Origin: a virus
DNA: 26,462 bases
Strand: one strand, 5' to 3'
Virus record (IMG/VR): IMGVR_UViG_3300041964_000051
Location: 1-26,462 of that record
The notes under the pieces are model-generated. The model ran no database searches. It saw only the letters and a list, made by a program, of their open reading frames with translations, and was not told the origin of the DNA. Shown in pieces: positions 1,518 to 26,462 of the stretch; the first letter of the stretch is position 1; each line of letters begins with the position of its first letter. The position numbers and the translations under genes were made by a program.

Positions 1518-3049
1518 AGAGAAGTATCAGCCCAAAGCTAAGCAATCAGCCGTTGGCAAAGTCTTACAAGAGAAAGCCGACCAACTGATCGCCATTGGTG
1601 CTTTCGTGTCTCTGTGGGCGATTTTTGCCCCAATGGTCAACATTCAAACATCAGGCACAGTACAACCGTTTGACCCGTATGGCTTCCAAGTTGACCTGAT
1701 TCAGACGATCGAGGAGAACCAGAACACCGTTATCTGCAAATCACGCCAGATGGGTATTTCAGAAACCATCTGCTGTTGGCTATTGATGCGATCGCTCACT
1801 GAACCGGGCTTCAGCGCGGTCGTGTTCAGCAAGACTCAGGCAGACTCTTCTGAACTGGGTAGACGTATTCGTGAAATGGCGATTTCACTTGGTTCACTCT
1901 GTCCACAGTTGTCTTCTGAAAGCGCCACCAAGTAGCCTTCAAGCGTCTCGGTCGCATCCATTTCTACCTGTTACGGCTCGCGCTGCGCGTGGTATTCCGT
2001 CTGTCTCTGTCGTGCTGTTTGATGAGGCAGGCTTTATCGACGGCATTGACGGAGTGTATCAGGCTGCCATGCCAACCCTTTCCATGCTGGGCGATCGCGG
2101 CAAGGTCATCTTCAACTCAACTCCCAACGGGAAAACAGGCTTGTTCTATCGCTTGCTTTCAGGGTGGTGTTGATGAACCTGCCAGAGTCAGAGATGCACT
2201 GGATCAAATCAGGCTGCCAGTGCCCTCTAACAACATCGTGCCGTTCAGTCGTAGCAATCGCCCAACACGCGATCGTGGGTACATCGCAAATGGCGAAGGT
2301 GTTTCTGCATTGGCGGGCACATCCGGTCTATGGTTCTGATCCTGAATGGGCTGAGAAGACCAGATTGAACGGCAGCTTACTGAGACGCAATGGAATCAAG
2401 AATATGAGCTTGACTTTGCAGAAGGGCAACGATCGGTCTTAAGCTCGACCTCTTTGAAGTCGCTGAGTCCGATACTTTTGCTGAACCAAAATGGCAGCAT
2501 CAATACTTAGTCGGCATTGACCCTAGCTTCGGTGGTGATGACTTCTACACCGTGCGTGTGTGGGATGTGACCTGCTTCCCGTACACTTGGCAGCAGAGTT
2601 TAAGGACAACCGTAAGAGCAAAGACTATTACATCGCTAGGACGATCGACTGCATTGAACCCTACGAGCCATCACTGATTGCAGTGGAGACTAACTCAGTG
2701 GGAGCGCTGTATCAGCAAGAGTTGATCAAAGAGCGCCCTGAGTGGTTGGTGGAAGGCGTGACATGAACAACGCTAGCAAGATTCTGCACACCGATCGCCT
2801 GGTTCTGCTGCTAGAACGTGAGCAACTTCAAGCCCGGCTGAAGCGCTAGAGGAGTATAAACACTTTGTTGAATCGATCGACGGTAGCACACGCAGACGAG
2901 AAGCGGAATCAGGACACCATGACGACTCAGTGATGGCGGATGCCGTTGCTTTTGCCAAATTGGAAGCCATGCCACCGCTGCCAGATTACACAGCATCAAG
3001 CGCTGACGATCGCCCAGTCTATGACGTTTTAAGCGAAATCGGCATCTAA
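1450..3049 (+). pseudogene. Terminase large subunit (Mu gp28-like), multiply frameshifted
   Basis: This is the ATP-driven DNA packaging motor. A Walker A-like motif, CKSRQMGISET, lies at 1735-1767. LPVTARAARGIPSVS and the Walker B core VVLFDEAG follow, with the Asp-Glu pair at 2021-2026. Then come NSTPNGKTG and the C-terminal RNase H-fold nuclease, with GIDPSFGGDD (Asp codon at 2519), the VETNSVGALYQQEL segment and the HHDDSVMADAVAFA segment near 2915. These pieces occur in different frames. Two breaks can be placed: a lost C in ACC(C)AAG near 1928 and a lost C in TTC(C)TACC near 1964. More lie between 2160 and 2830. The order and content of the protein are otherwise complete, about 530 residues. 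It ends with TAA 3047-3049. The start is uncertain; GTG 1450 gives a 68-base overlap with the previous gene. Confidence 0.85.
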
Positions 3050-3085
3050 GGCTACAATCAACTCATTGACAAGCGACACCGCTTC

Positions 3086-4690
3086 ATGTCTTTAGACTTA
3101 CAGACACAAAATCAATATTGTCGAAAGTGATCCACTGCTGGCGTATTCGTTCAGGGCGGGTCCAGAACCGCATGATGAATTTTTAGCGCTGCGGATTGGT
3201 GATGACTACCACAGCTACGCCGAATGCGGCGTGATCCACACGTTCGGGCACAGCTATCGAAGCGCTTGCAAGCCTTACTCAGTCGCCGGGTGATTGTCGA
3301 GGGCAAGAACAAGAAAGCAACTGCGATCGCTCAGGACATCCTAACAAGTACTGAGCTATGAAGCCATTCTGTTCCATGCTCAAGCCACAGGCGACCTGAT
3401 TGGGTTTGCCGTGTTGCGCATGGACTGGGAGCCGATCGGTGGCTATATTCTGCCTAAGTTTGAGTTTGTACCACAGAATCGTTTCAGCTTTGCGTATGCC
3501 GCGCCCGACGATCGCACCATTCTCGATCGCGGATGGTAGTGACCTCGACCCTCGCACAGAGATCTCGTTGGTGGCATGTCTATGATTTACGCCCTGCTGA
3601 CCAAGACTCACCACTACAAGGTGAACGCTGCCCCAAGGGTCGGTTCCTGGTCTACACATTTGGAGGGTGATGGTTCACCGTGGGCTTAGGTCTAGGTTAC
3701 AGCATCTTCCCTTGGTGGAACGGTCAAAAGGCAGGCGATGAAAGCTTGGGTTAGTGCACTCCGATCGCATTGGCTCCCGCCCTGTGCTGGGCCCCAAGCC
3801 CGCACAAGGCGAACGAGAAAAGCCCAGCCCAAGCAGCAGCAGACCTTCAGTTTGAGCGCTTCTTGCGCTCCATCAGCCCCAAACGGGTTGGGCGAATATG
3901 CCACACGGGTACAGCGCTGAGATGCTAGAGGATTCGAGTAGTACGTCCCTGATGTACACCAGCGACTGATCGAAGTGGCAGACGCACAGATCAGCAAAGC
4001 GGTGTTAGGTGAGGTGGCGTTAGTGAGAAAGCGACAGGCAGCTATGGGGCGAACGAATCGCAGGTAGCCGATCGCGAGTCCTCCATGATCGATGCTGACT
4101 GCAACTTGCTAGACGAACAACTACAGCAGCAGTTATGGACAGAGATTCAACGCTCAACTACCCGACCAGGAAGGCGCACTAGTACGGCGGGAGACGATCG
4201 CGGATAAACGTCAGATTGCGCGGATGCTGAACACCAGCAGCACTGAAAGATCGCGTCGATCGTGACAACACCTTACTCAGCATGGGCTTCAGCGTCAAGC
4301 TGATGCGGTCAAGAAAGTCTATGGCGATGAGTACGTGAGACACGTCGATCGCTAAGGACGCTGACGTGAAGAACAGAAGCAAGCGCTGATCAGCATCCTG
4401 CAGGTAGGTGGTACTACAGCGCTGATGACATTCCTTTCTAGCTTTCAGCCAGTCGGATTGAGTAAAGAGAATGCGATCGCTGTGCTGACTGCGGTATTTG
4501 GTGTCACGGCTGAGTGGCAGAGTCGATGCTACCGAGCGCCCGCACCAGAAGCAGCAGCGCCAACCAGCGTAGAGGATGCTGTAGGGGCAGCGTATGTGCT
4601 GAACCCGAGGCGATCGTAACGATGAGACTGTTGATCTAGCAGAGTTGCTCGACCTGTACTGTCAGATTCATTCAGTGAACTTGACTTAAC
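3086..4690 (+). pseudogene. Portal protein, DUF935 / Mu gp29-like, multiply frameshifted
   Basis: This protein would form the ring at the capsid vertex through which DNA enters. From ATG 3086 the pieces read, across frames: INIVESDPLLAYSFRAGPEP, RLQALLSRRVIVEGK, YEAILFHAQATGDLIGFAVL, PKFEFVPQNRFSFAY, GLGLGYSIF, LQFERFLRSISPKR, VADAQISKAVLGEV, SEKATGSYGANESQVADRES, MIDADCNLLDEQLQQQLWTE. The PKFxFVPQxRF, ADAQISKAVLGE and DADxxLLDE elements in this order are characteristic of the DUF935 portal family. At least eight indels are needed to join them. The C-terminal part (FSSFQPVGLSKENAIAVLTA, then APAPEAAAP) leads into the cysteine linker and ADP-ribosyltransferase domain listed next, probably as one polypeptide. 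It follows the large terminase after about 36 bases, the usual Mu-like order. Confidence 0.75.
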
Positions 4691-17095: not shown

Positions 17096-19283
17096 TGCCA
17101 TTACAACTTAACGGGCAAAACGTTGAGACGCTCTCTAGCGATACAGGCACTTACACCTGGGCTGATGTTGTGGCATTGGGCAGCAGCAACCTCATTACAC
17201 TTGCAACAGTGGGTGGGCGTACTCTTTATCGTTGGACTGGCATATTAACGCTACGCGGCACCAGCATCCTCAACATCACGAACCAGACGATCGAGTTGCT
17301 GGATGGCAGATTTAGCGCTAACGAATCCAGCACGATTAACTTTGGGGCCGTATCAACCTACTTAGGGCAGACCGTTTACAGTGGCGGCTGTCAGCTTTTA
17401 ATTTCTCGGAATAACGATGAGGGTGGATCGGCAAGCGACAGCTTGTTGAGCTATACGACAGGCAGCGATCGCAGCTCAACCGCATCTAAAATAAATATCT
17501 ACAATTCTGTTGTTTCGATCAGGGCTGGTAGTAATCGCTCGAATCTTTTCGTGTCCGCCATTTATAATTCGCTGCTTTATGTTGATTCTACGGACAATGG
17601 CAGCCTGGGGTCTTTTTGTTTCTTGCAAGGTAATGGAGTCCTGGCAGGCACAAAATTCACACGATTAAGTATTGAGTTGGCAGGCTCAAACATTCAGGTA
17701 AGCGGCTTTGAAACCGTTTTGCCAAAGTATGCCTTCTTGAACTACACAGGAGTTCGGCAAAGCTTCAGTGGTGTCTCAAGTTTAACTTCGACGGATTATG
17801 ATTTCTATGTGGCAGATAATTCACCCATAGATTTTGTAGACTCCTTTGTTTCGTTGGCAAAAGGGCACATTCAATCCTTTGGAAGTCCTGTACAACAATC
17901 AAGACAGTTAGCGAGTCAGAGGATCAGAATCCAGTCGGGCGGCTCCCCTGTCCAAAATGTTTATATTGCCTATGCTGGACGGACAAATGTTAATGGTGCG
18001 ACAGCAGCAGACGGCAATTTTAATTGCTCGTTGGTTTGGCAAGAAACAAACTTAACGGGTAATCCAGGGGGAGCCAGCTTTTTTGCGGAACCAACACCGA
18101 TCGCTGACTATTCGAGCTACATCAGAGAGGTGCGATCGTATCTGCATCTAGGGATATTAGAAAACCTCACGATCAATTCTCCACTCGGCACGATCGCCCA
18201 GCCTTTTTCACTGAGCCTGAGTATTGATAGCGGCATCACGCAAACCAATACAACAACGGTAGCGGCGTACTCAGGCGTTGCTCATGCCACCAACTTGATT
18301 ACACTTTCGGGCAGTCTGTGTTGGCTCAGGCTTATGACTCCAGGAAGCTCTACTGGCGCAACAACGACAGTATCACGGCACCTGTGCGAGTCGGGCAGTT
18401 AGCCGACTTTGGCTCAACCAGTCTCACGATCGCTTCGGTGGCGTACTCACGGCGAGCACAGCCAAGTTTAGTGATGGGATTAAATCGAAACGGCACTCTG
18501 ACGCTACTCAGTCCCTCCAGCCTTACGGCCTTCTACCAGACTGATAGCGGCTCGATCGCGCTTCAGGCAGCAGGCAACTATAGTGCTATTAAAGGCGTTG
18601 TGGGAGCAACGGCGATCGTCACTGTAGTGGCAGGCACAACCAACCTTAGCGGTTGGACATTCGCCAGTGGCACTACCATTAACCGAGTTTCTGGTAGTGC
18701 CACGGTGATCGTAGATAACACAACAGGCATTACGGCGGGCACAGGTGTTACGGTCATGGTCGCTCCGTCTTCCATTCAGGTCGCAGTGCAAGGTGCCCCG
18801 ATAGGGGCAGCGATCGGTGTCTTCAAAAGTCTCGGCACGGGGAGCATCATTGCCGATCGCGCTCAGTTCGCCTTAGCCGCTGGCAACAACTCAGGCAACT
18901 CTACCCTTGTCTTGAGTGCAGCGATTCCGCTCGATACACCAGCAGCAGGCTTTGTGCGTGTAGTGAGAACATCTGGAGTGGAGGATCGTTTAGCCTATAC
19001 CAGCTACAGCGGCTCAACGTTCACTCTGTCGGGAACGTTGCCTACATCCTATACAGCAGGCGACGGTGCTTATGTGGGCTACCTGGATGTGCTGGGTTCT
19101 GCTACGGGTAGTGAGTCCAACACGATCCAATACATAGCCGATCGTGATTGTGTGCTGGCAGTGCGTAAAGGTTCAGGCACCGGACGGATTAAGGATTTGC
19201 GCCAGGCTTTTGTCATCGTCAACAGCAGTCAGGTGATTCCGGTATCTGGCATTCTCGATTCGATCAACAACGCTACCGTATAG
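17095..19283 (+). CDS. Large beta-rich adhesin / tail appendage protein, one frameshift
   Basis: Frame one gives 400-plus residues beginning MPLQLNGQNVETLSSDTGTY, with repeated short beta segments and few charged residues, as in beta-helix fibres. Near 18320-18330 the frame is lost; one base restores SGSLVLAQAYDSRKLYW and continues into RNNDSITAPVRVGQLADFG. The last part, from FALAAGNNSGNSTLVLSAAI to the end SGILDSINNATV, is a module that recurs at the end of the 20922-22664 protein. Full length is about 728 residues. It is likely a receptor-binding or decorative fibre protein. The following gene has AGGAG before its ATG. Confidence 0.65.
18870..19283 (+). repeat. Shared C-terminal adhesin module, copy 1
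   Basis: This covers about 137 residues from FALAAGNNSGN through SAAIPLDTPAAGFVRV, YTSYSGSTFTLSGTL, IQYIADRDCVLAVRKGSG to the gene end. It matches copy 2 (22254-22664) in order and in most aromatic and glycine positions, with clear DNA similarity in the first 70 bases. Confidence 0.8.
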
Positions 19284-20921: not shown

Positions 20922-22664
20922 ATGGCTTTAATTGACGATCTACAGATTAATTTGCCGAATCAGCGGCTCAATATTAACGCGACACTATTCACGGTTTATC
21001 AGTGCGTAGATTTTTACACGCTCCTGCAAAATCTGTTTGATGAAATTGGCGCGATCGCACTCGCTGGCTCGATCGCCTATCCAACACCATTAACCGCTAG
21101 TACGAAAACGGACTATACGTTGGTACAAGGCTGGTATCTGACCCAGGCTTCGTACAGATTCCTGCAAGGTGGTTCGATTCAAACCAGCGGCTTCGCCAAT
21201 ACCATTTATTTGCTGACTCTGGCGAGCGGTGGCTACACCAGCGCTATAACGGGCGACCTTTACAAAACGGTTGTCGGTGGCACTTCAACCGCCACGGGCA
21301 GGTTACTCGACTATGACAACACAGCCCGTAAATGGTGGGTGCGTAGGGTGACGGGTACCTACGCAAACTCTGAAGCTATTACCATCACGACGGGCACAGG
21401 GGCAGGTAGTACGATCGCCTCTACTGGTTCGCAAACTGGCGAAGATGGTTCAGCTAACGCCTATACACTCGGCACGCTCAATCACGGTGGCACTTATTTT
21501 GCTCAAGGCTCAACCGTAACGGACGGGACTGGCTGGTACGGTAACAGCAACATCACCGGAAACCATATCGACATTTTGATCAAGGTGCGCGAAGCCGGAA
21601 ACCTTATCAGTAGTGGTAGCGTTACATTCTTTAACCGAACGAACCGCGATGCCGCTAATGCGCTCGATGGGGCAACGGTAGGCGATACTTACGATTGGTA
21701 TAACGCCGATCTAAGCGGCTTTGGGCGTACTCCGATACCTTTGAACACCAAAGCGGATTTGGCTGATACACTGACGAATGCTCAAGCGCTCAATCTGACC
21801 AACGGGACGACGGCAACGATCGCGCTCACGATCGGCTCGTTTACCGCTGACGTGGATCAGGACGGCAGCACCGAATCCTACACAGGCAGGGTTGATCAGT
21901 CCAGCCAAACCAACGCCGTCCTTTACTCTGTCCTGAAATACATTTTCCGCAAAGGCAACACGACAACGATCAACAGTGTCCAGGCGCAGTTGTTCCAGTT
22001 CCTCAACAGCGCCTACACGGTGGTCAAAGATTCACCGATCGCAGCGATCGCGGGTGGCAAAATCTTCTATGCGCGTGGCTGGTATCCGATCAACGTGGTG
22101 TCATCTGATGCTTCTAATTACCAGACGATCGGGACTGGTTCAACACGCCAATCAACCCCCCTGTGTTCTACCTGAGAGCGCGAACAGGGTGTTCCGGTTG
22201 GAGCTAAAGTCATCTTGGCTCGTAGCTCTAGCAGTAACTTCCTGCTGACCAGTGAGTTTGCACTTGCCGCTGGTAACAATTCAGGCAACGGCACTCTAGT
22301 ACTAAGCGCTGCCATTCCGCTCGACAAACCCTCTAGCGGCTTTGTACGGGTGTTCGACAATAGCGGCAACGAAGACCGTTACGCCTATACCTCGTTTTCA
22401 GGCGCAACCCTAACGCTTTCCGGCACCCTCAGTAAAACCTACGCTGCGGCCAATGCCGCTTACATCCCCTACCTCGACACCACAGCAGGTAGTTCAACCG
22501 TATCGGTCGCGCTGCGCTATGTCGCCGATCGCTCTGTTGCCTCCTTTGTGCGGCTGGGTAGTGGTGCTAGCAAGATTCAGGGTGATAGCTCCAACTACAC
22601 GCTGACCGCTGCTGACAGTTCCGTACCTGTGACCGCGATCGCTGACACTATCAACAACAACTAA
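20922..22664 (+). CDS. Second large adhesin / tail appendage protein, frameshifted
   Basis: ATG 20922 (AGAGGA upstream) starts MALIDDLQINLPNQRLNINA. The 417-residue clean part has LLTLASGGYTSAITGDLYKT, SEAITITTGTGAGSTIASTG, DGTGWYGNSNITGNHIDILI and LNLTNGTTATIALTIGSFTA, then QTNAVLYSVLKYIFRKGNTT, typical of beta-structured appendages. Two indels near 22130 and 22190 restore DWFNTPINPPVFYLRA and REQGVPVGAKVILARSSSSN, after which the shared module (22254-22664) completes the protein, about 580 residues. It starts after a stem-loop, so it may have its own promoter, though none is clear. Confidence 0.65.
22254..22664 (+). repeat. Shared C-terminal adhesin module, copy 2
   Basis: This covers about 136 residues from FALAAGNNSGNGTLVLSAAI through PLDKPSSGFVRVFDNSG, YTSFSGATLTLSGTL, LRYVADRSVASFVRLGSGAS to IADTINNN. 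It is homologous to 18870-19283; the start is most conserved and the middle diverges, suggesting an old exchange or duplication of a receptor-binding or assembly tip. Confidence 0.8.
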
Positions 22665-22668
22665 ACCA

Positions 22669-23256
22669 ATGGCAACCAAACCCGCTCCACCTAAGCCCGC
22701 TGCTACAATCTCGGACATCAAACCACAAGCGCGTCAAATTCAGCAAGCCGTTGCAAATTTGCAAGCCGTTTTGCTTGGCGTGGAATTAGTCGAGCATTTC
22801 AAGCAACATCCCGATGTGGTGCAAGGTCATCCTGGGGCAGACAGATACAAGCCGATCGCGGCGATTGGTACTGAACGGGCTGGCAGAGGCATTGAGTAGT
22901 CAAGTCCTGCCCAAACGTGATCAGCTTTTGGAGCGTCAGCAAGACTGGCTAGAGCCAGGTGATCTGATTGTCGGTTGGGCTGGTGAATTGATTGAATCCC
23001 CGACTTCGCCACACCCATCAGCGCGAATCGTTACCAGCGTTGAGGATGATGGCTACAAATGGCGCTATGCCGATGACGAAGAATCAATCAGTCGTGATCC
23101 GGTCAAGCTCGATCCCTGGTTCAGCATATTGGCTGGGAGCAGATTGAAGGTGGAGAGGACGCGGTAGGAGCGATCGATGCCGTGCAGCAAGAAGAATTAG
23201 CAATCCTCTCGGCAAAGCTAGAATATTTTCAGTCCCACGCCTATAAAGCCGAGTAA
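22669..23256 (+). CDS. Hypothetical phage protein, frameshifted
   Basis: The product starts MATKPAPPKPAATISDIKPQ, then QIQQAVANLQAVLLGVELVE. One indel near 22870 leads to VLNGLAEALSSQVLPKRDQL and LERQQDWLEPGDLIVGWAGE. A lost G near 23139 (GGGG to GGG) restores GEQIEGGEDAVGAIDAVQQE and the end AKLEYFQSHAYKAE, TAA 23254-23256. About 195 residues, helical at both ends. No family recognised. It is coupled to the next gene, whose ATG follows the stop directly. Confidence 0.5.
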
Positions 23257-25182: not shown

Positions 25183-25419
25183 TCAACCTTTGGCAACGAT
25201 AGGGTTGTCGATCGCGATTACTTCTTTGCTGTCTGTCCAAGTTATCAAGCCGCGCACCGTTCTTTCTAAAACCTCAGACCGACTTACACCACCAAGCGCT
25301 GCGCCTTTATCTTCCAAAAGATCCCAGGCGCGATCGGTCAAGATAAGATTTCTTCGTTTCTTTAGCTCGTCCCAATCTACGGGAACGCCTTTAATCCTTC
25401 TGGGGCGTGGGTTTGTCAT
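25183..25419 (-). CDS. Ribbon-helix-helix-like small regulator
   Basis: The 78-residue product reads MTNPRPRRIKGVPVDWDELK, then KRRNLILTDRAWDLLEDKGA, then LGGVSRSEVLERTVRGLITW. A basic beta strand (RRNLILTDRAWDLL) followed by SRSEVLERTVRG is the pattern of RHH / CopG-type DNA-binding proteins. It is divergent from the recombinase-like gene, and its start codon overlaps the -35 box of that gene's promoter, so it may repress it. No toxin partner is seen next to it. Confidence 0.65.
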   Translation of the reverse strand: MTNPRPRRIKGVPVDWDELKKRRNLILTDRAWDLLEDKGAALGGVSRSEVLERTVRGLITWTDSKEVIAIDNPIVAKG

Positions 25420-25441
25420 GTACGTATGTGCAAGCTATAAT
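25413..25441 (+). promoter_or_regulatory. Sigma-70-type promoter of the GIY-YIG/recombinase gene
   Basis: TTGTCA (25413-25418) and TATAAT (25436-25441) are separated by exactly 17 bases, one mismatch from full consensus. The expected start near 25448 leaves only about 7 bases before ATG 25455 and about 22 before ATG 25470. The spacer contains TACGTATGTG, and related GTATGTAAGTATAT follows, which might be operator material. It is the best promoter in the window. Confidence 0.7.
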
Positions 25442-25454
25442 TGTATGTAAGTAT

Positions 25455-26369
25455 ATGATAACTCAGAACATGAATATTGACGATCTAGAGATTGAAAGCC
25501 TCCCTAGCGTAGATATGGCAAGTTTGCATTTGCTTCCTGCGGCTCCAGGTGTGTATTTTGCGGCTGATGACAACAAGGTTGTTCATTACGTTGGTTTAGC
25601 AACTGATTTGCGTCAGCGGTGGGAAATGGGTCACAACAGGGGTGTCGCCTTAGCTTTGATCCAAGGTATTCGTATTTATTATTTGATCGAAGTGCCAAGT
25701 CGTATTGCGGCTATAGAAAGTCAAGCTATTCTCCGATTTAAGCCAGTGCTTAATATTTGGGTGCCGAAAGAAAACAAAGATTATTTAGAGCAAAAATATC
25801 AAGATCCCACAGTAGTAAGAGCCAAAATAAGAAGCGTAGCAGTCCGATCGTGTAAAGGTCGTTTGAGACTGGTATGGACTTGGAGAGGCAAACGATTTTT
25901 CTTTGTGCTCAAAATGGATGACACGTTGATGAACCGCGCAGCCGCGCAAATACTAGCATCAACAATCGCGCTTGATATAGCTAAAGGTTCGTTCGATCCC
26001 ACACTGGCTAAGTATCAACAAGATCAAATCGACAAAGACCACTTGACCGCTTCAAGCCTTTTACTTGCCTTTCAGGAGCACAAAAAAGAAGTGGTTTCAA
26101 AAGCGACACTAAGTAAATACAAAGCGCTGGAAAGCCATTTGACAAGCTTCTTTAACCATACTCCTGCACGATCTGTAACGGCTGGGAAGTCAAGAACTTT
26201 TACAGGATGGCTAGCGACAAAAATGACTCCCAGGAACGTCTACGACCGGATAACGATCCTCAATGCTTGCTGGGATTGGGCGATCGGGAAAGGTCTTGTT
26301 TCACTCAATCCTTGGGCAAAGGAGTTATCGCAACTTACTAAAGGGTTGTCGCAGTCAAATAAAACTTAA
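25455..26369 (+). CDS. GIY-YIG nuclease domain fused to the N-terminal part of a tyrosine recombinase
   Basis: 304 residues from ATG 25455 (ATG 25470 is also possible). Residues about 27-100 form a GIY-YIG domain: PGVYFAADDN with GVY at 32-34, HYVGL with YVG at 45-47, LRQRW with candidate Arg 53/55, the Glu in IESQAIL (88), and KPVLN with Asn 100. Residues about 125-180 (RSCKGRLRLVWTWRGKRFFF, TLAKYQQDQ) match the arm-binding domain, and about 190-295 (LSKYKALESHLTSFFNHTPA, WAIGKGLVSLNPW) the core-binding SAM-like domain, of phage integrases. The stop at 26367-26369 comes where the catalytic domain with the R..H-x-x-R..Y residues should begin; none of it is present in any frame up to 26462. 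It is either truncated or a DNA-binding nuclease in its own right. Confidence 0.75.
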   Translation: MITQNMNIDDLEIESLPSVDMASLHLLPAAPGVYFAADDNKVVHYVGLATDLRQRWEMGHNRGVALALIQGIRIYYLIEVPSRIAAIESQAILRFKPVLNIWVPKENKDYLEQKYQDPTVVRAKIRSVAVRSCKGRLRLVWTWRGKRFFFVLKMDDTLMNRAAAQILASTIALDIAKGSFDPTLAKYQQDQIDKDHLTASSLLLAFQEHKKEVVSKATLSKYKALESHLTSFFNHTPARSVTAGKSRTFTGWLATKMTPRNVYDRITILNACWDWAIGKGLVSLNPWAKELSQLTKGLSQSNKT

Positions 26370-26462
26370 GAGATGCGCGTGTGATCCAACAAAAACGTGA
26401 GCGCTACAATCTCATACTAATAAGCCTTCTAGGTCGCATATTCCTTTGATCGCACCGCAGAG

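Follow-up and report, generated by a model that had tools for sequence, protein, structure and literature searches.

The window analysed here is the whole of IMG/VR virus record IMGVR_UViG_3300041964_000051 (positions 1-26,462), which is classed linear. Its head genes include those for a head maturation protease, a major head protein, a neck protein and a Gp37-type protein, and its last gene encodes a chimaera in which a GIY-YIG nuclease module precedes the DNA-reading half of a tyrosine integrase. Judged from the sequence, the host of the virus is very likely cyanobacterial, since the motif GCGATCGC occurs 37 times in the record against 0.8 expected and the major capsid protein shares 47% identity with its Nodularia phage counterpart. 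The features at and around the chimaera gene are as follows:

25183-25419, minus strand: divergent gene for a 78-aa CopG/ribbon-helix-helix-like protein (from the translation)
25413-25441, plus strand: promoter-like site TTGTCA-17-TATAAT, matching the consensus at 11 of 12 positions
25455-26369, plus strand: GIY-YIG/integrase-reader chimaera, 304-codon frame, last gene of the record
25470-26369, plus strand: chimaera from its likely true start, ATG 25470 (codon 6 of the frame), 299 aa
25500-25769, plus strand: GIY-YIG nuclease module, residues 16-105 (alignment of 24 modules; AlphaFold2/Foldseek)
25833-26012, plus strand: arm-binding domain Arm-DNA-bind_2 (PF12167), residues 127-186, 27.4 bits (cut-off 22)
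26070-26318, plus strand: core-binding domain Phage_int_SAM_5 (PF13102), residues 206-288, 23.7 bits (cut-off 22.3)
26367-26369, plus strand: stop codon of the chimaera, within the linker, at the expected start of the catalytic domain

The chimaera frame is open across 324 codons (25395-26366). The ATG at 25470 is the likelier start, because proteins of the same family begin ten residues ahead of a conserved LP, and because the other ATG of the frame, at 25455, would lie too near the predicted transcription start, only about 7 nt past it. An earlier note on this DNA, made from the sequence alone, had taken the near-consensus promoter as an argument for expression. The site itself stands, but the region contains two promoter-like sites against 2.3 in shuffled sequences, which is no excess, and the promoter thus argues only weakly for expression. 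The -35 element of this promoter overlaps the start codon of the divergent gene, whose product is 47% identical to Calothrix CopG-domain proteins, gave no match in a Pfam scan and could be a regulator of the chimaera. In addition, third-position G+C amounts to 0.37-0.42 in the chimaera gene against 0.49-0.58 in the head and tail genes, which suggests a separate ancestry. Searches around the gene for tRNAs, Rfam families and direct DNA similarity returned nothing, and a comparison of the chimaera with the PADLOC defence-protein models gave no family at E 0.01.

In the nuclease half, the Pfam GIY-YIG model matches residues 32-65 with 17.1 bits, under its cut-off of 22.6, and the assignment was therefore tested by alignment and by a structure model. 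The residues found invariant across 24 aligned modules include Y34, Y45, G47, H60, E88 and N100, all present in the chimaera together with the nearly invariant R55. The chimaera reads GVY (Y34) for the GIY motif and YVG (Y45, G47) for YIG, and its H60 is displaced by a one-residue insertion. Furthermore, an AlphaFold2 model of residues 1-127 (mean pLDDT 86.6) had as its best PDB match in Foldseek the GIY-YIG domain of UvrC (E 3e-5, probability 1.00, TM 0.67 by target), whereas I-TevI was matched at E 0.5. By alignment, the identity of the N-terminal module is settled as a predicted nuclease domain of the GIY-YIG superfamily with its catalytic-type residues intact. The complete-looking GIY-YIG domain described in the earlier note is thus borne out, by all the catalytic residues in the alignment of 24 and by a UvrC-like predicted fold.

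The arm-binding and core-binding domains that follow are both nearly complete, score above their Pfam cut-offs and stand in the order that had been claimed. This integrase half shares 34% identity with the Planktothrix phage PaV-LD integrase (ADZ31525.1), and the alignment stops at NPW, the motif with which the core-binding domain ends. The PaV-LD protein is full-length, with a catalytic domain and no GIY-YIG module. The chimaera possesses the arm and core domains of an arm-type tyrosine recombinase and lacks the catalytic domain with its tyrosine and RKHRH residues. The stop codon falls 17 residues past the end of the core-binding domain, and the record ends 93 bases after it. That the protein stops where the catalytic domain should begin, as the earlier note had stated, was confirmed by the position of this stop in the linker and by a search with the Phage_integrase model (PF00589), which found no match across the 26.5-kb record. 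Similarly, the PaV-LD integrase compared with the whole record gave a significant match at 25824-26321 and nowhere else. When the three frames of 26370-26462 were read, no catalytic-domain residues were seen, and each frame hits a stop within 28 codons. A single frameshift hiding the catalytic domain was rejected for the 93 bases present, which are few, and the earlier suggestion that the missing part might follow after a corrected frameshift finds no support within them. A stretch past the stop, YNLILISLLGR, resembles a catalytic motif by eye and was treated as chance, there being no supporting alignment. PDB chain 9i5v_14, labelled as the ribosome-associated inhibitor RaiA, matches the profile of the integrase half at 5e-6; it was set aside as a structural relative, since its label does not fit and probably reflects a labelling problem.

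The nuclease half is a member of a modular family that is frequent in viral contigs and on plasmids of cyanobacteria. Proteins with the start and GIY-YIG module of the chimaera are encoded by plasmids of, among others, Nostoc, Calothrix, Gloeothece and Fischerella; the chimaera fits the family in that the LP...LP leader and the N-terminal module align and the tails vary between members. When diverse plasmid GIY-YIG proteins were aligned, no part was conserved well enough to scan with. A profile scan based on a narrower alignment, together with DNA patterns for the conserved core of the module (YF[AV]-8-Y[IV]G-3-[ND]L-2-RW), revealed more members in viral contigs. When 20 other viral members were scanned one by one with Pfam for tail domains, 13 showed a recognised small DNA-binding domain beside the module (seven HTH/Xre, three HTH_17 and three ribbon-helix-helix, one of the last weak), and the other seven had a tail with no assigned domain. 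Several plasmid members likewise pair the module with a small DNA-binding domain, and the usual partner in the family is an HTH, excisionase-like or ribbon-helix-helix domain. Because 13 of the 20 viral members and several plasmid members are built in this way, the pairing of the nuclease module with a predicted DNA reader lacking enzyme activity is normal, a family rule as judged from the domain matches. Seen from the nuclease side, a putative integrase reader without a recombinase engine follows this rule.

The likeness extends to individual proteins such as WP_309472796.1, from a plasmid of Nostoc sp. ATCC 53789, which has the same start, the same N-terminal module and a C-terminal DNA-binding domain. 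In plasmid proteins of this type the tail is an HTH domain, whereas that of the chimaera is integrase-derived; their genes often stand behind a codirectional small HTH gene, whereas the regulator-like neighbour of the chimaera is divergent. On the plasmids L005, L008, L036, L037 and L039, the module gene often comes after a small HTH-annotated gene with a short overlap, and gene order indicates that the two form a recurring two-gene unit on cyanobacterial plasmids. Tandem GIY-YIG module genes with end-to-start overlap and different tails occur at L043:3998-4926 and in L064, and in one protein (L068:591-1100) ribbon-helix-helix domains flank the GIY-YIG module on both sides.

No second protein combining GIY-YIG, arm-binding and core-binding domains was found in viral contigs, phages and plasmids, where the chimaera is a singleton. 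Scans of genome contigs also returned nothing, and covered cyanobacterial genomes inadequately. A literature search for GIY-YIG-integrase fusions found no paper, which is not proof of absence. The idea that a recombinase-type reader guides a GIY-YIG cutter, put forward in the earlier note, gains from the exchange of small DNA-binding tails within the family, loses from the lack of a second copy, and has the standing of a prediction.

The best explanation, to which we incline tentatively, is that the chimaera is a site-directed GIY-YIG nuclease with a borrowed integrase DNA reader, resembling the nuclease Odn but aimed at integrase sites. In this scheme, one nuclease module would be combined with exchangeable DNA-binding tails, the tail here being the arm and core half of an arm-type tyrosine integrase. 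Because the tail consists of that half, it would be expected to bind the attachment DNA of an integrase, at core and arm sites, without recombining it. The GIY-YIG domain would then nick or cut at or near the bound attachment DNA, recombination being impossible. The likely benefit would lie in acting against a competitor, an integrating element with an integrase that the tail imitates. The further proposal that the chimaera is an att-directed weapon or guard of the phage, which would use a captured integrase reader to locate the att sites of integrating elements and cut there, destroying rivals either ahead of their integration or once integrated, is rather unlikely. No att site of a victim element was identified, and in the search for a donor of the reader the nearest relative found was only 34% identical. 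The directed nuclease starts from established ground, namely the domains, the intact nuclease residues, the absent catalytic domain and the modularity of the family. It is favoured by a nuclease that is intact, by a protein that ends cleanly within the linker, by the absence of catalytic traces and by what is customary in the family; the evidence against it comprises the singleton status, the full-length fusion in contig L060, the integrase-like position of the gene, the indel-rich record, the contig end and the long branch of the module.

The precedent for such an enzyme is Odn (gp88), the origin-directed nuclease of phage ICP1. Its reader shares 42% identity with the RepA_N domain of the victim satellite, and Odn has been shown to cut the replication origin of that satellite (PMC8263062). 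Both proteins join a nuclease of the GIY-YIG superfamily to a DNA-binding domain resembling another mobile element's own recognition domain. They differ in layout, Odn having a C-terminal T5orf172 nuclease and a RepA_N reader and the chimaera an N-terminal UvrC-like nuclease and an integrase reader. They also differ in that cutting by Odn is demonstrated (PMC8263062), whereas the chimaera is known from sequence and model alone. An active chimaera would mean that the principle of Odn, a copied DNA reader of the enemy, applies to integration sites as well as to replication origins. The little-studied GIY-YIG family found in cyanobacterial plasmids and phages would then also look like a general set of cutters whose readers can be exchanged.

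The main rival explanation is that the chimaera is a remnant, a full-length GIY-YIG-integrase fusion such as that of L060 from which deletion, mutation or a sequence error close to the contig end removed the catalytic domain and which has no special function. It takes this place because a sister phage, 91% identical, has an integrase after its tail genes; it is a serious possibility, and the two readings were weighed nearly equally. The genes used for comparison are the following:

IMGVR_UViG_3300020202_000646 (contig L060), 4787-6334, minus strand: P0009, a GIY-YIG-tyrosine recombinase of 516 aa
IMGVR_UViG_3300018906_000009 (sister phage), 21723-22838: tyrosine integrase of 372 aa, complete, after the tail module

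A full-length fusion does exist, in the phage contig L060. Its P0009 resembles the chimaera in carrying a GIY-YIG module of the same kind N-terminal to tyrosine-recombinase sequence, and differs in keeping a complete catalytic domain (Phage_integrase 124 bits, GIY-YIG 33 bits), in which the R, HxxR, GH and Y motifs can be recognised. Furthermore, all 16 viral contigs related to PaV-LD encode an integrase with arm, core and catalytic domains and no nuclease, and the protein of Leptolyngbya phage Lsp-JY17, like that of PaV-LD itself, is also full-length. The earlier note had held that its reading would fall if all homologues were full-length, and on the integrase side this is nearly what was found, every relative including that in L060 keeping the tyrosine. 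However, the recombinase of L060 is Xer-like and without a Pfam arm-domain match, and a tree with weak support places its module apart from that of the chimaera, which sits on a long branch. L060 is therefore not the direct parent, and the sequences make it probable that the two fusions arose by independent captures.

The sister record (L033/L034/L035) has head genes about 91% identical to those of the record and almost no sequence in common with it beyond position 17,100 of the record. It has no chimaera gene; its complete integrase, although unrelated, lies past the tail genes, a position comparable to that of the chimaera gene, which likewise follows the tail module. This speaks for a remnant. 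Compared with the sister, the record contains 10-20 frameshifting gaps per kb at 2000-4500, all of single bases and none in-frame, where the frames of the sister are open, and the terminase frame is broken within this part. These indels look like sequence error rather than gene decay, so findings based on open reading frames at 2000-4500 are unreliable. Such a record, the location of the chimaera at the contig end and its singleton status are all consistent with a remnant. Against this, a frame of 300 codons is intact despite the error-prone record, its stop lies in a domain linker, and no single frameshift opens a catalytic domain in the remaining 93 bases. The plain truncation named in the earlier note as the simple alternative is thus strengthened by the full-length relatives and the contig end, and weakened by the clean linker stop and the absence of a catalytic trace.

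A role as recombination helper, in which the chimaera would bind and nick the attachment sites of its own element and so assist a separate, complete integrase, appears improbable. Tsy transposons have a GIY-YIG nuclease that assists YRec and TnsF, and in ZooTsy transposition was impaired without the nuclease, which was not essential (PMC10293859); the fused GIY-YIG-recombinase of L060 points the same way. Tsy, which acts at a fixed target site (PMC10293859), likewise links a GIY-YIG nuclease with tyrosine recombinases. However, its nuclease is a separate gene and both of its recombinases are catalytically active, whereas the chimaera is a single protein without a catalytic domain, and neither a complete integrase nor an rve-type transposase was found in this incomplete record. 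A related case is TnsF of Tn6022, which likewise descends from a tyrosine recombinase and has lost catalysis while still serving to recognise DNA (PMC10293859); TnsF retains its catalytic domain in inactivated form and directs a Tn7-type transposase, whereas the chimaera pairs its reader with a nuclease.

There is equally little probability that the chimaera is a homing endonuclease or selfish gene, which would cut an integrase gene or att locus in genomes without it and be copied in by repair. Modular DNA-binding tails on GIY-YIG genes are typical of phage homing endonucleases, a relaxed pattern search returned free-standing homing-type GIY-YIG genes, and the separate ancestry suggested by third-position G+C would fit. 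Nevertheless, the module is UvrC-like rather than I-TevI-like, no NUMOD-type tail is present, and no pair of empty and filled sites was found; in the sister, no empty site can be defined because the two records share almost nothing past 17.1 kb.

Apart from the chimaera, P0009 of L060, whose gene adjoins terminase-like and portal-like genes, may be a recombinase that has two different active sites for breaking DNA, as its domain content suggests. The full-length GIY-YIG-recombinase would then be a recombinase equipped with a second, cutting active site.
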